Position numbers and translations under genes: made by a program. A DNA stretch of 64,000 bases. Source: Pleurocapsa sp. PCC 7319 (lineage in GTDB: Bacteria > Cyanobacteriota > Cyanobacteriia > Cyanobacteriales > Xenococcaceae). Shown piece by piece: positions 7,083-42,036 of the stretch (positions are counted from its first letter, which is position 1; the number at the start of each line of letters is the position of its first letter). Where the stretch lies: positions 4,685,322-4,749,321 of the forward strand of contig NZ_KB235922.1 of assembly GCF_000332195.1 (NCBI RefSeq), read 5' to 3'. The notes beneath the pieces were generated by a model. That model made no database searches and was not told where the DNA came from. It saw only the letters and a list, made by a program, of their open reading frames with translations.

Positions 7083-7658
7083 ATGGAAATTATTACTGCC
7101 CTTTGTTTAGGAATAACCCTAAGTGCTGCCTGTGGCTTTCGTGTTTTTTTGCCGCCGTTAGCGATTAGCATCGGAGCTATTTACGGACATATTCCTCTGT
7201 CATCCGGGTTTGAATGGTTAGGCTCAACTGAAGCAGCGATCGCCTTAGCCATTGCAACTCTTTTAGAAATTTCAGCTTACTTTATCCCTATAGTTGATAA
7301 CTTATTAGATACGATTCAAGTACCTATTGCAGTCGGCATTGGTACGGTTATAACTGCTGCCACTCTAGGACATACCGATCCTGTATTGCAATGGACCTTA
7401 GCTGCGATCGCGGGAGGAGGAACAGCAGGAATCATGGGTACTTTAGCAAGTCTAACTAGATTAGCTTCGACAGGAATTACTGGAGGCTTCGGCAATTTTA
7501 TTGTGGCAACAATCGAACTAGTAGGTTCAATCTCGTTATCTATCTTGGGTATTACTTTTCCCCTTTGGACTGCGGCGATTATCCTCAGCTTACTGATATT
7601 AGCTGTTATGAGAATAATTTCTCGTCCTCCAGCCTGGTTGACCAGAAAAAGTAGTTAA
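7083..7658 (+). CDS. DUF4126 family membrane protein
   Basis: A 191-residue hydrophobic protein with about five to six membrane segments. The start (GITLSAACGFRVFLPPLAIS) and the glycine-rich GGGTAGIMGTLASLTRLAST pattern match DUF4126, widespread bacterial integral membrane proteins of unknown function. It lies about 105 bp from the divergent kinase gene and is co-directional with the following GTPase gene (67 bp gap), so the two may be cotranscribed. Confidence 0.82.
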   Translation: MEIITALCLGITLSAACGFRVFLPPLAISIGAIYGHIPLSSGFEWLGSTEAAIALAIATLLEISAYFIPIVDNLLDTIQVPIAVGIGTVITAATLGHTDPVLQWTLAAIAGGGTAGIMGTLASLTRLASTGITGGFGNFIVATIELVGSISLSILGITFPLWTAAIILSLLILAVMRIISRPPAWLTRKSS

Positions 7659-7725
7659 GCTTTTTTAATAAAACTAGAGCGTGTAATTAATTAGCCAAAA
7701 AATTAGAAAAAACAGAGAGCAGACA

Positions 7726-9627
7726 ATGTTACGCATCAAACCTTGGCAAGCAGCTATTTTAATTCTTCCCATCGCAACTATCGTAATCTTTTTATTGGTT
7801 GCAGCAGGTTCGCAGATTCATGACTGGGGAATTAATTGGATTTGGGGTGTAGTGATCTTAGTTTTTACTGGATGGCGATGGTTATTGGTGAAGTGGACCA
7901 AACCAGCCTTGGCAGAAATTCAGGAAGTTATGGAAGAGATTAATCAAGAGTTAGAAGATGAAACCCCAGAAATTGAAGCTAAAGGAGATAAAAAAACGCA
8001 AATTAACGCTGCCATCAACGAAATTATCACCCAAACCAAGTCGGATGAACCATTTTGGGAAGACTGGACGACTTTTTGGCAACGCTGTCAGGAATTAGTC
8101 AACGCGATCGCTCATATTTATAATCCCGAAGTTAAACGCCCTCTACTCAATATATATATTCCCCAGGCTTACGGATTAATTCGCGGTACCGTAGATGATA
8201 CAGATCGCTTGATGCAGAAGCTTGCCCCAGTATTAAATCGAGTTTCTATCGGTCAGGCTTATGAAGCTTATGAAATGTATCGTCAATTGGAACCCTCAGC
8301 ACGTAAATTAGCTCAAGCATTTAATTGGTCACAATGGTTAATTAATCCTGCTGCTGCTGCCGCCAAACAAGCCACCAGAAAATTTAATACTCAAGCAAAT
8401 CAGGAATTATTACTTAACTTGGGTCAATTAATTCGGGAAACAGCTTTAAGAAATCTCGCTCAACAGGCGATCGCCTTATACGGTGATGAGACCATTGTTA
8501 TCCCCGAAATTGACTCCAATCCCGCTTTACCCAAAGCAGAAACCCAAACCCTCAAAAAAATCTTAGAATCAGCCGAATCACCTCAAGAAATTGCTCAAAA
8601 GCCCGTCAATATTCTTCTTGTGGGGCGTACAGGTGCGGGGAAAAGTAGTCTAATTAATACTCTCTTTCAAGCTGAGAAAGCAGAAGTAGATGTATTGCCT
8701 AGTACAGATCGAATCAAAAACTATCATTGGCAAACTCCCTCTCAAGAAGTCCTAAATCTTTTAGACACTCCTGGTTATGAACAGGTAAATCGTCCTGAAT
8801 TACGAGAACAAGTGTTAGATTTTGCCACCAAAGCAGATCTATTACTATTAGTTACCCCTGCTCTCGATCCGGCTCTGCAAATGGATTTAGATTTTCTGCA
8901 AGTCTTAAAACAAGATGTTACTGATTTGAGTGCAGTGGGAATTGTAACCCAAGTTGATCGCCTCCGTCCCATTCGTGAGTGGAATCCTCCTTATGATTGG
9001 CGCGAGGGAAATGAGCCCAAAGAAAAATCCATTCGCGAGGCAACTAACTATCGTACAGAACTATTAGGAGACATCTGCGAGCTGATTTTACCTATTGTGA
9101 CGGAAGATCGAGCTAACAATCGCTCCGCTTGGGGAGTAGAAGCTCTATCTCAGGAATTAATTCAGGCGATCGCACCAGCTAAACAGCTTCGTCTTGCCCG
9201 TTTTTTGCGAGATTTAGAAGCCCGCAGCACAGCCGCCGCTCAAATCATAGATCGCTATACTCGTCAGTTATCTACTACTCAAGGTTTAACTGCTTTCTTA
9301 AAAAGTCCTGTGCTGCAATTTATTTCTACTATGACCACAGGCAATCCTACCTTAGCTTATGTTTTGGCAGAACAAATTCCTGTAGAACAAGCACCCGTAG
9401 TAATTGGCAAGCTTCAGATGGCTTATGACCTATTCATGTTGCTCAGTGAACAACCCAATATCAGTAACTTCGATTTACGTTCTCTGTGGTCTTTATTATT
9501 AGATTACAACGAAGCAGGTAATCATAATTCTTGGGCATTTGGTCATGCTTTAGTGGAATATTGGACCAAAAATCTTAATGCAAAACAATTACGCGATCAA
9601 TATGATTTTTATTTAAAACAGAAATAG
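7726..9627 (+). CDS. Membrane-associated Era/dynamin-like GTPase
   Basis: The 633-residue protein begins with two hydrophobic segments (about residues 10-28 and 35-52), then an acidic helical region (residues 60-290), then a GTPase domain. G1 is GRTGAGKSS at about 300-308, G3 is DTPGYEQ near 346, and G4 is TQVD near 408. The C-terminal 150 residues are helical. Cyanobacterial homologues are usually annotated as 50S ribosome-binding or dynamin-like GTPases; the physiological role is not known to me. Likely cotranscribed with the DUF4126 gene. Confidence 0.82.
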   Translation: MLRIKPWQAAILILPIATIVIFLLVAAGSQIHDWGINWIWGVVILVFTGWRWLLVKWTKPALAEIQEVMEEINQELEDETPEIEAKGDKKTQINAAINEIITQTKSDEPFWEDWTTFWQRCQELVNAIAHIYNPEVKRPLLNIYIPQAYGLIRGTVDDTDRLMQKLAPVLNRVSIGQAYEAYEMYRQLEPSARKLAQAFNWSQWLINPAAAAAKQATRKFNTQANQELLLNLGQLIRETALRNLAQQAIALYGDETIVIPEIDSNPALPKAETQTLKKILESAESPQEIAQKPVNILLVGRTGAGKSSLINTLFQAEKAEVDVLPSTDRIKNYHWQTPSQEVLNLLDTPGYEQVNRPELREQVLDFATKADLLLLVTPALDPALQMDLDFLQVLKQDVTDLSAVGIVTQVDRLRPIREWNPPYDWREGNEPKEKSIREATNYRTELLGDICELILPIVTEDRANNRSAWGVEALSQELIQAIAPAKQLRLARFLRDLEARSTAAAQIIDRYTRQLSTTQGLTAFLKSPVLQFISTMTTGNPTLAYVLAEQIPVEQAPVVIGKLQMAYDLFMLLSEQPNISNFDLRSLWSLLLDYNEAGNHNSWAFGHALVEYWTKNLNAKQLRDQYDFYLKQK

Positions 9628-27967: not shown

Positions 27968-30900
27968 ATGTCCGACAAGCACTATAACAGTCCCAGAAAA
28001 GCTCAAGCGAATGATTTTGATGATAACCGCTTCTTTGTGGTGGGAATTGGAGCTTCGGCAGGAGGACTACAAGCTTTAGAAGAGTTTTTTGAAAACATTC
28101 CCCAGGATATCGGTGCAGCGTTTGTAGTAATTCAACATCTTTCACCCCGCTTCAAAAGTTTGATGCAAGAGTTATTACAAAGAAAAACTTCTCTTCATGT
28201 CTATCAGATTGAGGATGGCATGAAGATAGTACCTAATTCGGTTTATGTTATTCCCCCTCGAACCAATATTGTAGTAGAGCACGGAAGATTACATTTTCGC
28301 GAGCAAAAACCAGAGCGGCTCAATTTTCCGATCAATATGTTTTTTGGTTCTTTAGCCCAAGAGTATCGAGATCGGGCTATGGGAGTGCTACTTTCAGGTA
28401 CGGGAAGCGATGGAACTGAAGGGTTGCAGGCAATTGGAGAAGCAGGAGGGCTGGCACTGATTCAGTCTCCTGAAACGGCACAATTTAGCGGGATGCCCGC
28501 CAATGCTTTGCCTACGGGGTTAGTAGATGAAGTCCTTTCTCCCCACGACTTGGCAGAAACGATTTATGAAATTGTCAGAATTACCCGCAACATCCCTTTA
28601 ACCGAGCAATTAACTGAAAATGTCATTGATCCGATACAGCTTAATCAAGTGCTGGAGTTACTTAATGACCAAGAAGCCGTAGACTTTTCTCAATATAAAG
28701 TAGGCACACTCTCAAGAAGAATTTATCATCGCTGTTCCCTGAACGGCTATCGCTCGCTAAAAGCTTACATTACCTATCTCGAAAGCTCCGAGTCAGAACG
28801 TCAACTACTCGTTCAGGATTTTTTGATCGGTTCGACTCGTTTTTTCCGCGATCCTGAAGCTTGGCATTTTTTGGAAACCAAAGTTTTACCCCCTTTACTC
28901 GAAAGTTTGGAGGCGCAACAACAGCTAAGAATTTGGGTGGCAGGTTGTGCTACAGGAGAAGAAGCTTACACTATGGCAATATTGGCTGATGAAGCAGTGG
29001 CAAAAAGCAATAAATCCTTGAGTGTCAAAATTTTTGCTACCGACTTAGATAGTTCGGCTTTGGAAACTGCTTCTAAAGGTATTTATCCCCTAAATATCAC
29101 TAAAGATATATCTGCCGAACGATTGGAACGCTATTTCCTCGACAAATCAGACTGTTACCAAGTTCGGCGACAGTTGCGGGAAATGCTTATTTTTGCACCC
29201 CACAACTTAACCAAAAATGCGGGCTTTTCTAAAATGAATCTGATTAGCTGCCGTAACGTGCTGATTTATATGCAGCCAGAACTACAACAGCAAGTATTAC
29301 GGATGCTGCATTTTTCTCTGGCATCTCAAGGTATTTTGTTTTTAGGCAGTGCAGAAGTTCTCGGGATGCTGGAAGGAGAGTTTTTAATGGTTAACTCGAA
29401 GTGGAAAATTTACCAAAAACAACGAGATAATCAACTTTCTTTATTACCCGTTACCAGAGAACCCCTAACAGCCCCAACCCTTTCTCCAACACGTCTTAAA
29501 CGCATTCAGCCTCGATTAGATCGTGTACTAGGTCAAGTTTTTAATTTCTGTTTTGGCGATCGCCAAGCAACCTGCTTGCTGGTCAGTGAAGATAACAAGT
29601 TGCTGCGTATTTTTTACGATACGGTAGATCTGTTGAGATTGCCTCTAGGGGAAGCTAATTTAGATGTGATATCTATAGTTCCTCCTGCTTTACAGTTACC
29701 TTTATCTACCGCTTTACACCGCGCCAAACGAGAACGAGAAACCGTACTCTACGCGGGAATTAAGTTAACTCAAAGAGAACAGTCGCGAATAATCAATCTT
29801 AAGGTGGGCATAGAGTCTGGGGAATCTCACAAAGAACAGTTGTTGATTGTATTGCTAGAAGAGCAAAAACTAAATATTAATACGGTTTCTAACCAAACGT
29901 TTGAAGTGAATGCGGAAACAGTCAACCAACTTAACGAATTAGAATACGAACTCCAACAAACTCGCGAGAACCTACAAACCACCATTGAAGAATTAGAAGC
30001 CACTAACGAAGAACAACAGGCGACTAATGAAGAACTGATTGCCTCCAATGAGGAACTGCAAAGCACCAACGAAGAACTACATTCGGTAAACGAGGAACTT
30101 TATACCGTCAATGCCGAACATCAATCCAAGATTCAAGAATTACTCGAACTCAATAACGATTTAGACAATCTGCTCCAGAGTACGGAAATTGGAGTGATTT
30201 TCCTGGATTTGAACCTCAATATTCGTAAATTTACTCCTGCTGCCGCTAAAGCCGTCAATGTTAGAGAAGGAGATGTCAATCGTCCTTTAACCGATTTTTC
30301 CCACAATTTATCTTGTTCTCCACGGCAAGACGTATGTTATGACCTAGTTGAATTACTCAACCAAGTTCTAAGTAGCCGACAATCCGTAGAACAGGAAATG
30401 GTGTTGCGTCCAACAGACAGACATATTTTAACGCGGGTTAACCCCTATTGGAGCGAAAAAAGAGAATGCCAAGGTCTGGTATTAAGCTTTATCGATATTG
30501 ATGAAATCAAACAAGTAGAAGAAAACCTGCGACGAAGTTCCGAGCAGTTACGCTTGATTACTGATGCCATGCCTGCTTGGATTTCCTATGTTGACGAACA
30601 ACGCTGCTGTCGTTTTAGCAATCGAGCTTATCAAAACTGGTTTGAAGGATATTCCGAAGGGATTGAAGGATTGGATTTAAAGACAATCTTAGGAGATGAA
30701 ATTTACCAGCAAGTTCTTCCCCATGTAGATATGGCTCTTGCAGGGGAAAACGTCAGTTTCGATATGGAATTTCCCTCTCTTAATCGCGGTTCTCGTTGGG
30801 TGAATATCAGCTATATTCCCCATATTCTGGATTCAGGTCAAGTAAAAGGATTTTTCGCCTTAATTAGCGATATCAATGATCGCAAGGCAGTGGAACGGAT

Positions 30901-31618
30901 AAAAGACGAATTTATTTCTGTTGTCAGTCATGAATTGCGTACCCCCTTGACAGGAATTTTAGGCATGTTGCAATTACTATCAGAAAAAAGTATTAAACCT
31001 GAATCGGAAAAAGGTGCAGAAGCTCTAAAAATTGCCTATGACAGTGCCTTACATTTGATGAATTTAGTCAAGGATATTTTGGAGCTAGAGCGTTTAGAAT
31101 CGGGCAAAATCAAGCTATTTAAGGATTGGGTCAATGCTGCCGATTTAGTTGGTCAAGCTAAAGATGTGATGAAAACCATGGCCAAGCGAGAAAAAATTAC
31201 CATTGATGTCTCCTCTGAGGAAATTGAAATTTATGTCAATGGCGATCGCATAATTCAAGTTTTAAATAATCTTCTCAGCAATGCCATTAAATTTTCTGAA
31301 CCCGGTTCGATAGTTTTTCTTACTGTAAAAAGGCAAAATGATACAGTTATTTTTACAGTTCAAGATCGGGGGAGGGGTATTCCCGAAGACAAACTTGACG
31401 ATATTTTCGAGCGTTTTCAGCAAGTGGATGCCTCAGATTCTCGTAAAAAAGGCGGAACGGGTTTAGGTTTAGCCATTTGTCGCCAAATTATCCAACAACA
31501 TCAGGGAAAAATCTGGGCGGAAAGCAGTTTCGGTGAAGGTAGCAGTTTTTACTTTGCTTTACCACTTGAAAGTTTGGAGGATACGGCAATTGAGTCAGAA
31601 GCAAATCTTGATCGTTGA
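27968..31618 (+). CDS. CheB-CheR-PAS hybrid histidine kinase
   Basis: The 1216-residue protein joins a CheB methylesterase domain (residues about 20-205; serine in [12 protein letters not shown], histidine in IQHLSPRF, aspartate in [10 protein letters not shown]), a CheR methyltransferase (about 225-490; [16 protein letters not shown] motif, [16 protein letters not shown]), a long coiled coil (about 640-740; repeated [17 protein letters not shown]), two PAS domains, and a HisKA/HATPase kinase with H988 in [11 protein letters not shown] and the G boxes [11 protein letters not shown] and GGTGLGLAI. Such fusions respond to unknown cues. No membrane segments or receiver. A response regulator overlaps its end. 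Confidence 0.93.
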
Positions 31619-31964
31619 TGATGACGATAATGTACGAGCAACCGTAAAACTTTCTCTTCAGGTAACAACTGATTGGGAAATTTTGACTGTTGGTTCGGGA
31701 CAAGAATGTCTATCCTTAGCTCAAACCAAGCCTCCCGATCTAATTCTTCTCGATGTGATGATGCCCGGTCTAGATGGGATTGAAGTTTTACGCCAATTGC
31801 GAATTGATGCCGTAACTCAAGCAATCCCCGTTATTTTTCTGACGGCAAAAACTCTATTAAAAGACCAGAAACAGCTCAAAGATTTAGAAGTTCAAGGAAT
31901 AATATCAAAACCATTTGATGCTATGGATTTAGCAAAACAAATTTGTCTTTTACTAAAATGGTAA
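31590..31964 (+). CDS. Single-domain response regulator (CheY-like)
   Basis: The probable start is TTG 31590, preceded by GGAGG at 31577-31581, so the gene overlaps the kinase gene by 29 bases. The 124-residue protein is a receiver only: IVDDDDNVR acidic pocket, phosphoacceptor in LILLDVMMPG, VIFLTAK switch region and GIISKPFD lysine. It lacks an output domain and is the likely phosphorylation partner of the overlapping kinase; translational coupling would give matched amounts. Confidence 0.9.
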   Translation: MSQKQILIVDDDDNVRATVKLSLQVTTDWEILTVGSGQECLSLAQTKPPDLILLDVMMPGLDGIEVLRQLRIDAVTQAIPVIFLTAKTLLKDQKQLKDLEVQGIISKPFDAMDLAKQICLLLKW

Positions 31965-36472: not shown

Positions 36473-38098
36473 CTATCCAGGTTTTGAATTGTCATTACTC
36501 ATTGATAGTTCCTCAGATAGCTGGTCAACTTCTGTGGTGATTTTTATAATTTCTGTTTTGATATTTTCTGCTTCTTTGCTAATTAATTCGCTGGCAGCTA
36601 TCTTATTAGATAATTCCTCTTGTTTGGGTCGGATAACATCGGCAAACTGTTGTAAACACTTATTTAATTCGGCTGCCAAGGCATCTTTTAAGGCATTAGT
36701 ATAGCTTTCCTGTAAATTAAGGTAGGTTTGCTCTAATTCCTCTTTGACTTTTTTGCGTTGTCTGGGTAAAGCGTTAAAACCCATTAGTCCAAAAAGTCCC
36801 GCAATCAAAAATGCAGTAGCATCAGCCGAACCAGTATTAAATAGAATATGCCCACCAAATCCAGTGGCGGCAGCAGTAATACCTAGTCGCCAAAAGCTAT
36901 CTAACCCTTGTTCAGCAGCATTCTTGATTTTTGCCGCAAACTCATCAATTTCTAATTTATCTGTGTCAATTTTCGGAATAGCTAATGTTCCTTCAGAGAT
37001 AGTCACTGCTGTTGATAGATCTTCTTTGGCTTCTCTGACAATACGCTCTCGGTATTTGAGAAAGGTGGCAATTGCCTCCTTAAATATTTCTTGCAGATTT
37101 TTATCGAGCTGAATTTCTTTGATGGTTTTGGCGAGTCTTGCTTCGAGCAAATCATCTTCTTTAGTAATTCTTCTTTTGAGAACAGTTAGAAAAGAAGTAT
37201 TGCCATCGATTAGATTATTTGTGCCTTGGATCAAATTTTTAAATAGATCGTCGATATTATCGCGGAAAATTCCAAACAGTAAATTATATTCTTCCAGTCT
37301 CTCTTCGATTCTACGGGAAGTGCGGTCAAAAATAACCTTTTCAGTCTCTAGTTTAGACTTTACTGTCTGGTTTTGCTTCTCTAGCTGTTCTAAATAGACT
37401 AATAAAGAATTTTGAGGACCCTTAAGCTTTAGCTTGACTTTTTCTCCTTCGGCTAAAAATGCTAATAAAAAACTTTTTAATTCGTCAATTCCAGCACCAG
37501 TTTGAGCGGAAATAGAAAATACAGGGGGCATTTCTGCCAGTATTTTTTCTAGTCCTTGACTGATGTATTCACGAATTTCTCTAGCCTCATTTTCTTGAAC
37601 TAAGTCAATTTTATTGATGGTAACAATAATTTTACGCGCCCAAGTCTGATCGACTAGAGTTAAAAAATCTTGTTCTGATTTACTCAAAGGGCGTTCAACA
37701 GAAGTAACAAATAAAATGATATCTGCCTGTTGCAGATAGTTTTCGGTTAATTCTTGGTGTTGTTCAATAATTGAATTAGTTCCAGGGCTGTCAATAAAAA
37801 CTAATCCCCCAAATCCTTCTGGATTATATGATTCAATCTCTTTTGTTGTGGGAAGAAACCCGACAGTAGCAATTTCTTGGTTATTTAGTTGATTTAGTAA
37901 ACTAGATTTACCAGCATTAAACTCACCACAGATAAAAATTGAGAAGGGATTAGCTAGCTGTTGTTTAAGGACTTCTGTATCGGGATTAAATTCGGGAAAA
38001 AGTACTTTTGCCTCGACAAAAAGACCTTCAACTTTCTGAATGGTTTCCAAGCTGCGATCGAAAAGCTGTTGTTGTTCTCTTGAAAGAGTTAGAGGCAT
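36473..38098 (-). CDS. Dynamin-like GTPase
   Basis: From ATG 38098 (RBS AAGGAAGAG) the protein has 541 residues; an upstream ATG at 38140 is less likely. G1 is CGEFNAGKSS at about residues 57-66, G3 DSPGT near 99-103, G4 NKID near 162. A long coiled-coil region (about 245-390) is followed by two hydrophobic helices (about 395-450, GITAAATGFGGHILF and AFLIAGLFGLMGFNAL) and a helical tail. This is the layout of bacterial dynamin-like proteins, which remodel or protect membranes. It shares no obvious operon. Confidence 0.88.
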   Translation of the reverse strand: MPLTLSREQQQLFDRSLETIQKVEGLFVEAKVLFPEFNPDTEVLKQQLANPFSIFICGEFNAGKSSLLNQLNNQEIATVGFLPTTKEIESYNPEGFGGLVFIDSPGTNSIIEQHQELTENYLQQADIILFVTSVERPLSKSEQDFLTLVDQTWARKIIVTINKIDLVQENEAREIREYISQGLEKILAEMPPVFSISAQTGAGIDELKSFLLAFLAEGEKVKLKLKGPQNSLLVYLEQLEKQNQTVKSKLETEKVIFDRTSRRIEERLEEYNLLFGIFRDNIDDLFKNLIQGTNNLIDGNTSFLTVLKRRITKEDDLLEARLAKTIKEIQLDKNLQEIFKEAIATFLKYRERIVREAKEDLSTAVTISEGTLAIPKIDTDKLEIDEFAAKIKNAAEQGLDSFWRLGITAAATGFGGHILFNTGSADATAFLIAGLFGLMGFNALPRQRKKVKEELEQTYLNLQESYTNALKDALAAELNKCLQQFADVIRPKQEELSNKIAASELISKEAENIKTEIIKITTEVDQLSEELSMSNDNSKPG

Positions 38099-38190
38099 AT
38101 TTTCTCTTCCTTGATCTGTAATTGTAGATATATCCTTCAATTAATAGCAGTTTTTCAACCGATCGCGCCCAGACTTTAAGATTAATACCA

Positions 38191-38325: not shown

Positions 38326-41300
38326 TTAGTAATCCTCCTGTCCCAAATAATGTTCATCATTTTGCTGAGGAACCCTACCATTAGATACTACTGATTGAGG
38401 TTGTGATTCTGGCAAATCTGAATTTTCTAACTCCACAGCAGGTTGGCTTATACCTGATACTGGTGCAGCAGTAGTCATAATCTTGGTGCGACTTTGAGAC
38501 TTCCAATGCTGATAGCTGAGGATAGGCAATGAAGCTACTTTCTTGGCTAATGCCCAGAAAAATACGTAACTGGCTAACAGACGTTCAAAAGAACTAAAGC
38601 GCGATTCTCTTAATTCTTCAATTAAGGCTTTTTGATCTTCGGCGTTTTTGTTTTGGAAGTAAAAAGAATCGTCACGAAAATAAAAACAATCCTCGTTACT
38701 TTCTAAAACGATCGCACTAGTCAAACCTTTATGGGCGATCGCTGGATTAGAACCCATAACCACAACTTCTGGTCCCACATCAATATTTCTAACACCATCC
38801 GCTTGCTTACCAGCCATGATTACGGCATGTTCTTGTTGTCTTAGCTTCTCACTCCTTCTGCCATCCGGTACGCCCAGAAATAGTAAAGTTCCTCGAACTA
38901 CTCGATGTCCATAATCATGCAGGAGATCGTCTTCAGGATCGGCTCCGTGTACTTCAATAGAGGCAATTCCATAACTGAGGGAAAACAATTTGCTGACATA
39001 ATTTTTTAGTAACTGGTGTACCCATGGCACATCACCAATTACCAAAGTTCTTTTGCCAATTCTGGCTAGTAGTTGTCTCCCCTGAAAGTATCGTAACCCT
39101 AGGGTCCACAGCCAAGAGCCAAAGATGTATATACCAATATCAACTAAGGTGATTACAGGATTAATCACCTTAAAGATGAATAATTCTGGAGGTATCTGAA
39201 AGAGCCAAACAAATATTCCTAATATGGTCTTGGCCAAGGGAATTGTATAACCAAAGGGAATTGCCCAGCCGACAGTGATTAAAACATATAGAGCATGAAT
39301 TGCCCAAGCGACAGGACTTTCATTAATATGCCAAGCCCATTTACGACCATTTTTGATCAATTCTTGTTGAGTAGTAGATTCAATGGTCTTTCCTGTGGGC
39401 GTAGTCCCCATAATTTGCACTACACTGATATCGAGAAAGTCATTTTTCATTTTTTCCAGCACTGTCAGACTTTCCTGGGTGAGGGTCATACCAAAAGGCA
39501 TTGAATTAGCGAAGGTATGTCTAATATTTTTGGCTACATACAATAACAGTTCTGTAAATGTTTGTTGGGCAGCAGCAACTGAAAGAGTTGCTGGTTCAGC
39601 GGTTCTACGTCCACTGCCATTGACAAAAATTTTGTGACGATCATTAAACTCAGATTCTCTTGATTTGATCGCAGGGGACCCCAAAAAGCTCCCCAATTCT
39701 CCCGTCATGATAAATAATTCCCGGATTTCTCGCTGACGATAGAGCTGATCGAAGGCGTTAATTGCCTGTACAGTGGGGAAAGTTTGTCCGGATTGGGTGA
39801 TCGCCAGCACGATCGAATCTTTACCCAATTGCAAACTGCTCAAGTTGAGTTTCAGATTTTGTAAAATTTGATTAGAAGAGATACTTTGCACATTCAGCAA
39901 AGGAAAAATAGTGTTTAAATCTTGAGCAAACCGCTCTCCTAGCCAAAGACTATTCTCTACACCAACAATAAGCAAATCAATCGTTGGTTGTTTACTTAAC
40001 TCCGATAACCCTGCTCGCAGCATTTTTTGTCTTTGCTTCTCGAAATTCCGCGCCTTTTCACACAATAAATAAACTAGATAACTAGCGCTTTGACAATTGA
40101 GAGAGTCTGGATTTTGCCAAGCTAATTTGATCTCTTCAAGAATGGCAGGTATTTCCTGATTGTCGCTGGCTATGGGATCATCAGTATTGTTAGCCGGATA
40201 TTTAACATGAGGTAGATAGGGATGATTTACCATAGAAATCCATCGGTCTCTCAGTTCCGTTGGACTTAAATCTTCCCCTTTAAGCATGGAATAAATCGAG
40301 ATATCGTTGGCACTGACTAGAGCAATTTCACCTCCTTTTTGGTCTAAATCAATCCGGTAAGATTCGGGAAGATTCAATAATACTGCATCAACAGCGGCTG
40401 GCTCTGAAGCATAAATCATATATCCTTCTTGCCAGTTGAAACCAATTGATATCGGTTGCCCCTGCGCGCTCAGTACCAATTGCTCTTTATCCAAAGTAGA
40501 AACAGTGACTAATCCAAAACTACCCTGAGCACCAGACATAAAAGTTTTGGTTGCTAAATGAGCATCATTGTGGAAGAAGGCATGAATCGCAGTTCTGACA
40601 AAATTCACTCTTTTTTGCCATGCCCATTGGCTGATTGAATCTTCTTTGGCGATCTCTTCTAATATGTCATGTTCCAAACGGCAGAGATACTGGTTGCAAG
40701 AGGGGGAATTGGGAGCTGCTAATAGTCGACGATAGAGCATGAATGTATGCTCAAAGATCTTAGCCCAGTCACTCAGCTCTTGTTCACTTGGTACCGTCAA
40801 AGGAGCGTCCCGATCAGGTTGTTGTCCTCCAAATGCGGATTCAATTGAATCGGCGATCGCTAAATAATAAGCTAATCTTACTGAAACGTACCAAATCCCT
40901 TGAGTGATTAAAAAATCCATCATCCCAGCAATTTTGGGGGAATCTCCCTTGGCATGATTGGGAGTATGCAATACTCGCTCTAGCCATAATCCTAATTCAG
41001 CATTTTCTACTGATTTGCCATAGAGTGTCCAGGCATCAAAATCTCCGTTGTGGGTAATACGGTGATTGACATTCATATCTTGACAAACCCATTGTCCTTC
41101 AGTGAACTGCCAAACTTTTTCATGTCTGGCACTCATCCATTCATGCCAGTGGGTTTCTAGTACTGCAGGTGGACCACTGGTGCCAAATCGATAATGCCAT
41201 ACTCCTGTAGTTGATAGCTTTAGAGGGGAAATACCTTTCCGTTGCGATTTGCGTCTCACGCTAGCAAACTCTGCTTCTAAAGAATTGGTCAAATTAGCTC

Positions 41301-42036
41301 TTTTACGATTGACAACCTTATCGCCGACAAACACAATTTGCTCATGATCATCCTGGGCTATTACTAATCCGCCACCTGCTTGTTCGCCCCGTATTTCAGT
41401 CTCTCGACCCATCTGAGAATACATATTGACCATTCTCTCTGGCAAAAGCAAATCTCCATCATCATCGAGACGTTGACAAATAAAGCCAAAATTACCGCAG
41501 TAAAATACATCTGCTATTCCTGTAATTAGAGCATTTATGTCTGTCCAAGAACTAATAGCAATTAGAATATTGGCAATGGTAAAAGCTTGAAAACATATCG
41601 TGGTGATATCGTTGACCAAGTAACCGCTATTATAGGCCTGAAATGCTATGGTTACTGCCAACAAATTACAGCCAATACCTGCTAAAGCTTTAACCCTGAT
41701 CATCCAGGGGAGCTGATTTCCTGCTGCCACCCAAGGATAACTGTGCTGTTCTAATCCTGGAATAAAAATTGGTGCGCCGGGAACTAAAGATTGCAAAACG
41801 CTATTAACACTTCGATGTTCCAGAATATCAGCAATTTTTATTACATCATGCCGATCCACAAATGCGATCGCAACTGCATGACCTAATCCATGAATCAAAA
41901 TGGCACTATTCCAAATCAACCTCACTAGTACAGTAATCGCCAGACAGATCAAACAACCCATCCATAAGTTTTGCTCGGTATAACCCAGGAATATAGAGAC
42001 ACCAAGGCTAATAATTTCAGGAATAAAATTTTTCAT
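38326..42036 (-). CDS. Giant membrane protein: M50-like, GATase II-like and SIS-like fusion
   Basis: The 1236-residue protein has several hydrophobic N-terminal segments (residues about 6-175) with HGLGH at 49-53, resembling the M50 HExGH site but with glycine in place of the catalytic glutamate, and ALAGIGCNLLAV echoing the M50 second motif. Next comes a class II glutamine amidotransferase-like region: CGNFGFI with cysteine at 180, YRFGTSGPP at about 282-290, and ITHNGDFDAW at about 327-336. A GlmS-type SIS-like region follows (about 640-840, AITQSGQTF at 745-753), then membrane helices (about 905-985) and a C-terminal soluble domain. No neighbour suggests a pathway. Function unknown; see findings. 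Confidence 0.8.
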   Translation of the reverse strand: MKNFIPEIISLGVSIFLGYTEQNLWMGCLICLAITVLVRLIWNSAILIHGLGHAVAIAFVDRHDVIKIADILEHRSVNSVLQSLVPGAPIFIPGLEQHSYPWVAAGNQLPWMIRVKALAGIGCNLLAVTIAFQAYNSGYLVNDITTICFQAFTIANILIAISSWTDINALITGIADVFYCGNFGFICQRLDDDGDLLLPERMVNMYSQMGRETEIRGEQAGGGLVIAQDDHEQIVFVGDKVVNRKRANLTNSLEAEFASVRRKSQRKGISPLKLSTTGVWHYRFGTSGPPAVLETHWHEWMSARHEKVWQFTEGQWVCQDMNVNHRITHNGDFDAWTLYGKSVENAELGLWLERVLHTPNHAKGDSPKIAGMMDFLITQGIWYVSVRLAYYLAIADSIESAFGGQQPDRDAPLTVPSEQELSDWAKIFEHTFMLYRRLLAAPNSPSCNQYLCRLEHDILEEIAKEDSISQWAWQKRVNFVRTAIHAFFHNDAHLATKTFMSGAQGSFGLVTVSTLDKEQLVLSAQGQPISIGFNWQEGYMIYASEPAAVDAVLLNLPESYRIDLDQKGGEIALVSANDISIYSMLKGEDLSPTELRDRWISMVNHPYLPHVKYPANNTDDPIASDNQEIPAILEEIKLAWQNPDSLNCQSASYLVYLLCEKARNFEKQRQKMLRAGLSELSKQPTIDLLIVGVENSLWLGERFAQDLNTIFPLLNVQSISSNQILQNLKLNLSSLQLGKDSIVLAITQSGQTFPTVQAINAFDQLYRQREIRELFIMTGELGSFLGSPAIKSRESEFNDRHKIFVNGSGRRTAEPATLSVAAAQQTFTELLLYVAKNIRHTFANSMPFGMTLTQESLTVLEKMKNDFLDISVVQIMGTTPTGKTIESTTQQELIKNGRKWAWHINESPVAWAIHALYVLITVGWAIPFGYTIPLAKTILGIFVWLFQIPPELFIFKVINPVITLVDIGIYIFGSWLWTLGLRYFQGRQLLARIGKRTLVIGDVPWVHQLLKNYVSKLFSLSYGIASIEVHGADPEDDLLHDYGHRVVRGTLLFLGVPDGRRSEKLRQQEHAVIMAGKQADGVRNIDVGPEVVVMGSNPAIAHKGLTSAIVLESNEDCFYFRDDSFYFQNKNAEDQKALIEELRESRFSSFERLLASYVFFWALAKKVASLPILSYQHWKSQSRTKIMTTAAPVSGISQPAVELENSDLPESQPQSVVSNGRVPQQNDEHYLGQEDY

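Follow-up and report, generated by a model that had tools for sequence, protein, structure and literature searches.

GlmS-type enzymes are regarded as soluble, housekeeping proteins, and the pro-peptides of class II amidotransferases, such as those of Bacillus subtilis PurF and GltB, are regarded as short. The gene described here, which lies at positions 38326..42036 on the minus strand of a 64,000-nucleotide stretch of the genome of the cyanobacterium Pleurocapsa sp. PCC 7319 (contig NZ_KB235922.1, positions 4,685,322 to 4,749,321; this whole stretch is referred to below as the window), begins with ATG and encodes a membrane-anchored GlmS-like protein of 1,236 amino acids; within the GlmS/GFAT superfamily, its family forms a new and divergent branch that is anchored in the membrane and has a probable pro-domain of an unusual kind. 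With GlmS and GFAT it shares the order glutaminase-SIS-SIS-tail (the second SIS domain at low confidence), the Cys nucleophile, the glutamine-site residues and the TQSG(E/Q)T phosphosugar loop. It differs from them in that the Cys is internal and lies behind a membrane domain, in the membrane hairpin that separates its SIS domains, in the helical insertion of its glutaminase, in scoring below the curated cut-offs, and in the apparent replacement (aligned by eye) of the isomerase Glu and the tail Lys.

Two other groups of described proteins bear comparison. Autocatalytic removal of the residues preceding an N-terminal Cys is known in class II amidotransferases (MEROPS C44), where, in the account drawn on here (PMC9140057), the residues before the Cys are removed so that it becomes N-terminal; these are a few residues, against what would be a membrane domain of 179 residues in the present protein. 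The membrane domain itself resembles the site-2 protease (S2P)/M50 proteins (Methanocaldococcus jannaschii S2P, SpoIVFB) in its modelled fold, its HxxGH motif, its G120...N124 motif, which takes the form GGPxxN in a few members, and an Asp conserved in the same motif order, and differs from them in that the catalytic Glu is replaced by Gly in 30 of the 32 members that carry the domain and that no Pfam M50 match exceeds the cut-off. Plant EGY3 is also a membrane protein of S2P descent and is described as a pseudoprotease (PMC9355673); that account, in the part used here, describes no amidotransferase fusion, and the likeness is one of description.

A preliminary description of this DNA had proposed a membrane protein combining M50-like, GATase II-like and SIS-like parts. 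All three proved to be real at the level of fold or motif, with strong support for the class II glutaminase and for the first SIS domain and moderate support for the M50/site-2-protease-like part. The motifs were found where that description had placed them and in the same order (HGLGH at 49-53, CGNFGF at 180-185, YRFGTSG from residue 282, THNGDFDAW from 328 and AITQSGQTF from 745), and hydropathy segments at 22-51 and 143-162, together with a cluster at 908-979, bear out an N-terminal membrane domain followed by later helices. Two features go beyond the earlier proposal: the GlmS-like chain is complete, its SIS domains being separated by a membrane hairpin, and many copies of the gene lie beside signalling genes.

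Pfam recognised no domain in the window protein and, when 16 family members including it were searched at E up to 1, returned nothing but chance-level matches to three unrelated families, each in a single member (best E 0.089). NCBIfam GlmS models matched the protein weakly but in the right order (PRK00331 at residues 491-551, E 9e-5; TIGR01135 at residues 735-764, E 0.003) and fell short of their curated cut-offs (21 bits versus 381 and 16.1 versus 418, respectively). A search of the sequences of solved structures with the protein and two profiles gave chance matches only, with no GlmS or S2P among them, and no literature on this domain architecture was found.

A structure model of residues 1-1200 (mean predicted local distance difference test score (pLDDT) 62.7; predicted TM-score 0.49) had as its best Foldseek matches E. 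coli GlmS (2j6h, E 7.7e-11) and human GFAT-1. VIA alignment placed residues 180-1195 on residues 1-600 of E. coli GlmS (522 aligned, Z 18.1, root-mean-square deviation 4.1) with C180 at Cys1, the identity to GlmS-type structures in such alignments being approximately 11-15%. Profile-profile comparison with cyanobacterial GlmS also set C180 on Cys1 and R283 on the arginine of RWATHG (probability 92.8%), and set the TQSGQT loop on the TQSGET of GlmS (probability 66.7%). An absence of GlmS similarity, which would have refuted the preliminary description, was thus not observed.

The class II glutaminase (N-terminal nucleophile, Ntn) domain, with its helical insertion, occupies residues 180-615 (40192..41499, minus strand, as are all parts of the gene given below) and aligned in VIA with the glutaminase domain of GlmS (1xff) at Z 17.5 over 228 residues. 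It is followed by the first SIS domain with the TQSGQT phosphosugar loop (residues 616-880; 39397..40191), the membrane hairpin (residues 900-984; 39085..39339; model helices 908-922, 934-945 and 953-984), the second SIS-like domain at low confidence (residues 985-1168; 38533..39084) and a conserved C-terminal tail, WKSQSRTKIMTTAAPV (residues 1178-1193; 38458..38505), which resembles the GlmS tail DQPRNLAKSVTVE by eye. Isomerase-domain matches reached approximately Z 20 over residues 616-1192 (Z 19.4-20.0 over 277-288 residues for the six best in VIA); the alignments were 277-296 residues long and ended at 1192-1195, in a low-pLDDT model across the second SIS region. A second SIS domain is probably present on the strength of the model. 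Basic residues flank the 908-979 hairpin on both sides, which is consistent with a cytoplasmic location for both SIS domains.

For comparison across the family, 41 distinct proteins of at least 850 amino acids carrying CG(N/H)FG were used; as this motif was the condition of entry, C180 and G181 are present in 41/41 by construction, while the other residues were free to vary. The frameshifted member L010 was included in the tree and residue tables and excluded from the N-domain/core correlation. Left out of the counts were L041 (5' part missing), L053 and L022 (partial), the decayed copy in G289 (L005/L006/L058/L060) and the fragments L044-L047; a further full-length copy, L149 (G515:C3), which is fused and has HGLGH and FCCGNFG, also stands outside them. 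In the 32 members outside one Cyanobium-like clade (f25), R283, T286, N330, G331, D332 and D365 of the glutaminase and S696, Q748, S749 and G750 were intact without exception. The homologue check that the preliminary description had called for, on C180, R283 and N330 (here also T286, G331 and D365), thus came out in its favour in 9/9 unfused members and in 23/23 fused members outside f25.

C180 (41497..41499), the predicted class II amidotransferase nucleophile, which aligns with GlmS Cys1, also marks the point at which the family comes in two forms: 32 of the 41 members carry the membrane domain (fused) and 9 are without it (Met-Cys). In all nine Met-Cys forms the open frame leading up to the Cys contains a single possible start codon (ATG, GTG or TTG), namely the ATG that immediately precedes the Cys codon. 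In all 32 fused forms the codon preceding the Cys is TAC, TAT, AAC, AAT, CAC, CAT or TGT and never a start codon, so that an internal translation start at C180 was rejected for these members. The possibility that a separate gene encodes the membrane domain in Met-Cys genomes was rejected as well: searched at E up to 1, none of the 5 genomes in which Met-Cys forms alone were found yielded the domain. In one genome (G686; L137, L138) a fused copy was found together with two Met-Cys copies, one of which is approximately 9 kb from the fused copy.

When mapped on a maximum-likelihood tree built from the part that all members share, the fused and Met-Cys states require 5 changes, at least 4 of them forced by well-supported branches, and 0 of 200 bootstrap trees had a single change; when the long-branch row L042 was removed, 4 changes were required, 3 of them forced, and again no one-change bootstrap tree was seen. 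The tree cannot by itself separate gain from loss of the membrane domain, and midpoint rooting was used, under which the outermost clades are fused. Identities in the N-domain and the core were correlated (Spearman 0.83; 31 fused members, 465 pairs; 0/999 Mantel permutations as high), which indicates that the fused form is old; since the N-domain has diverged alongside the remainder of the chain and the outermost clades are fused, repeated loss is the simplest reading.

In every switch the domain boundary falls on the Cys, which suggests that the Cys is N-terminal in the mature enzyme and that a cut between residues 179 and 180 exposes it in the fused forms. A methionine preceding a cysteine is normally removed, and the Met-Cys forms would therefore have the free N-terminal Cys that class II amidotransferases need; nine of the 41 homologues start in this manner, and the window protein, with its Cys at 180, would need cleavage. 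The fused forms outside f25 keep the same catalytic residues (23/23), which argues that C180 is freed there too by a cut at 179/180. The preliminary description had offered cleavage between Y179 and C180 or conversion to a binding or regulatory module as alternatives. The first, as a prediction from sequence, is favoured by the nine homologues that start Met-Cys exactly at this point; the second probably fits four members of the Cyanobium-like clade that have lost the catalytic residues, and may also apply to the rest of the family.

The site-2-protease-like membrane domain, a probable cleavable pro-domain, occupies residues 1-179 (41500..42036; AlphaFold model, mean pLDDT 75.6) and is absent from 9/41 homologues; besides the hydropathy segments, further helices appear in the models at 5-17 and 110-136. 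When the N-domain model was aligned alone in VIA, M. jannaschii S2P (3b4r) was the best match, at Z 8.1 across 132 residues, and SpoIVFB gave Z 7.1; the fold match is on its own moderate, because flagellar stator chains reached Z 7.7. Foldseek gave no match to this model under E 1, with bacterioferritin ranked top, Pfam M50 was not found above its cut-off in any of 12 N-domains (best E 0.5, in one domain), and in a profile comparison with M50 proteins similarity was confined to the HxxGH motif.

The M50-like motif without the catalytic Glu, HGLGH (residues 49-53; 41878..41892), and D166 (41539..41541), a putative third metal ligand whose equivalence to the M50 Asp is drawn from motif order, are conserved among the fused members: H49 is present in 31/32, the only exception being L010, in which the reading frame is broken, and H53, D166, G120 and N124 are each present in 32/32. 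Position 50, the catalytic Glu of M50, is Gly in 30/32, the two exceptions being L021 with Glu and the frameshifted L010 with Asp, which agrees with the earlier suggestion that this part is probably not a protease. L021 has the sole complete HELGH among the 32 fused members and is sister to L010 in the tree. The N-domain is accordingly read as an S2P-like pseudoprotease which, to judge from its conserved residues, may retain metal binding.

The sequences and models show the domain order, in which the second SIS domain is a probable part, the conserved catalytic residues and the boundary exactly at C180. The family most likely consists of glutamine-dependent SIS enzymes that are tethered to the membrane and processed, or of sensors descended from such an enzyme, and the best explanation as a whole, on balance a probable one, would be a membrane-anchored member of GlmS/GFAT that depends on glutamine and is activated by the cut at 179/180. 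The chain would insert with its glutaminase and SIS domains on the cytoplasmic side, and either the Ntn fold itself or some other protease would break the 179/180 bond, leaving C180 with a free alpha-amino group. The cut enzyme would remain held at the membrane through the hairpin, where glutamine would be hydrolysed and the ammonia handed on, within the SIS part, to a ligand resembling a phosphosugar.

The surroundings of the gene suggest what such an activity might serve. Directly downstream in the window is a bacterial dynamin-like GTPase gene (36473-38140, minus strand; identified with Pfam), and a GGDEF-like gene lies divergently upstream; at L007 the same two neighbours flank the gene (the GTPase being 88% identical to that of the window), and at L008 a GGDEF gene is again upstream and divergent. 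Two fused copies (L012, L014) and two Met-Cys copies (L017, L018) directly follow a gene for a receiver and HisKA protein, with a SulP-STAS-cyclic-nucleotide protein in the same run at L012 and L017 and a HisKA-receiver-ParA-like protein at L012, L017 and L018. A paralogue in the window genome (L135) and L020 are preceded by genes for Ser/Thr kinases that also carry a periplasmic-binding-protein domain. In the Pleurocapsales copies L009 and L011 a DUF3050 gene (7102-7917 and 1586-2428, respectively) is directly upstream, between a kinase gene and the family gene, the kinase at L011 being identified solely by how its sequence begins. Divergently upstream of L141 are a class III cyclase and a regulator of CRP type, and a CRP-type regulator accompanies L148. 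No signalling domain was found in the one or two neighbours tested by Pfam at L013, L142, L144, L145 and L146. Pfam was applied to 30 selected neighbours outside the window and to 3 beside the window gene, and L016 was assessed by eye only. Elsewhere in the window, at 27968-31964, a CheB-CheR-PAS-histidine kinase fusion is followed by an overlapping response-regulator open reading frame.

The association with signalling genes is suggestive, and the recurrence of such neighbours suggests that activity or processing would be coupled to nutrient (nitrogen/sugar) signalling rather than to housekeeping glucosamine-6-phosphate (GlcN6P) synthesis, which can be supplied by a canonical GlmS, above the TIGR01135 cut-off, encoded elsewhere in the window genome. 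More tentatively, and with a good deal less confidence than is attached to activation by cleavage itself, the metal-binding, protease-dead S2P-like domain might act as an inhibitory pro-domain, with a signal relayed by kinases or cyclases controlling the cut and so starting the transfer of ammonia, at the membrane, to a phosphosugar; loss of the domain exactly at the Cys would then yield constitutive versions.

Several points weigh against an enzyme activated in this way. Cleavage, glutaminase activity and product are all predicted, and given that the account in PMC9140057 describes only a few residues before the Cys, a membrane pro-domain of 179 residues would be unusual. The fused form is in the majority, so the membrane domain must have some useful role which the proposal does not explain. 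The second SIS domain is the weak part of the chain: pLDDT is below 50 across 984-1117, nothing credible was found for it in the profile comparison with cyanobacterial GlmS, and global alignment was unsuccessful too, so that its assignment derives from alignment of a poor model and the likeness of the tail by eye. The GlmS isomerase residues are Glu488, His504 and Lys603 in E. coli numbering (as given in PMC9272926); aligned by eye, Glu488 falls near S1019 and Lys603 near M1187, while His504 possibly corresponds to H1040. Position 1019 is Ser in 32 members, Ala in 8 and Gly in 1, and position 1187 is Met in 33, Ala in 5, Leu in 2 and a gap in 1 (n=41). With Glu488 and Lys603 apparently replaced, the sugar chemistry probably differs from that of GlmS, and the protein is for this reason not called a glucosamine-6-phosphate synthase. 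The signalling neighbours, for their part, vary by clade, and several copies are without one adjacent.

The f25 clade also weighs on this side. In four of its nine members (L004, L065, L066 and L067) the Cys is kept (CGHFG) and the equivalents of R283, T286, N330, D365, S696 and Q748 are lost, so that glutaminase activity is probably absent from some of the family; these four remain full length. Q748 is lost in 7/9, His at 748 being the only change in L068-L070, and the glutaminase catalytic residues are intact in 5/9, of which L062 and L063 are intact at all tested positions. The four degenerate members are probably a natural glutaminase-dead branch and may represent the regulatory end of the family.

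The alternative that survives best is that the fused proteins are never cut and that the glutaminase binds glutamine without hydrolysing it, forming with the SIS part a membrane receptor for glutamine and a phosphosugar which informs the neighbouring kinases, cyclases or GGDEF proteins. This is a possible reading, albeit an unlikely one. It would accommodate the signalling neighbours in several clades, the isomerase residues that look replaced and the four f25 members that are degenerate in the glutaminase yet full length; a sensor would also conserve glutamine-binding residues, and SIS-fold regulators exist (GKRP matches the model at Z 15). It leaves unexplained, however, the exact Met-Cys start of all nine forms without the domain, and the retention of the nucleophile even in the four degenerate members. 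An ordinary additional GlmS producing GlcN6P at the membrane would fit the overall architecture, but is very unlikely given the low structural-alignment identity (approximately 11-15%), a score of 21 bits against a cut-off of 381, the apparent replacement of the isomerase residues and the canonical GlmS already in the genome. That the S2P-like domain is an active intramembrane peptidase which cuts its own chain before C180 is hardly to be expected, despite the almost invariant putative metal ligands H49, H53 and D166, the HELGH of L021 and the fold match to S2P, since the catalytic Glu is Gly in 30/32 fused members, the window protein included, and M50 profile similarity is limited to the HxxGH motif.

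The distribution of the family is wide but patchy. A peptide scan of the genome-contig collection gave 17 loci, all cyanobacterial; as the peptide patterns were taken from one protein only, distant relatives may exist elsewhere. Profile searches (E up to 0.001) matched 25/388 genomes in the order of the window organism, of which 20 had long matches, 4 had fragments only (G454, G498, G578 and G530) and one (G598, a 635-codon frame) probably matched through its canonical GlmS. In a second order 5/42 genomes matched, one of them with a decayed copy, in a third, probably Cyanobium-like order 9/150 matched, and in a phylum-wide sample 3/386 did so. The window genome itself also has two full-length paralogues of 59-60% identity. 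Searches for plasmid, defence and viral relatives returned none. A promoter scan of the gene and its flanks gave 22 promoter-like sites against a shuffle mean of 21.2, which is no excess, and was not used.

Two damaged copies were also observed. At L041 (G515:C1) approximately the first 250 profile positions are missing, with no trace in other frames, and a mobile element is possible. In the decayed copy L005/L006 (G289:C85:150625-152282) a frame whose beginning resembles the Tll0287-type histidine kinase of L018 (judged by the sequence start) runs into gene positions 558-795, as if by an internal deletion in the operon.

In this family a GlmS-like chain is tied twice to the membrane, and its nucleophile lies concealed behind the fold of a degenerate intramembrane protease, in a domain architecture missed by Pfam. 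Its fused and unfused homologues constitute a natural experiment on the activation of an Ntn enzyme, and the family suggests that, next to signalling genes, cyanobacteria have a glutamine-linked component of the membrane that has apparently not been described.

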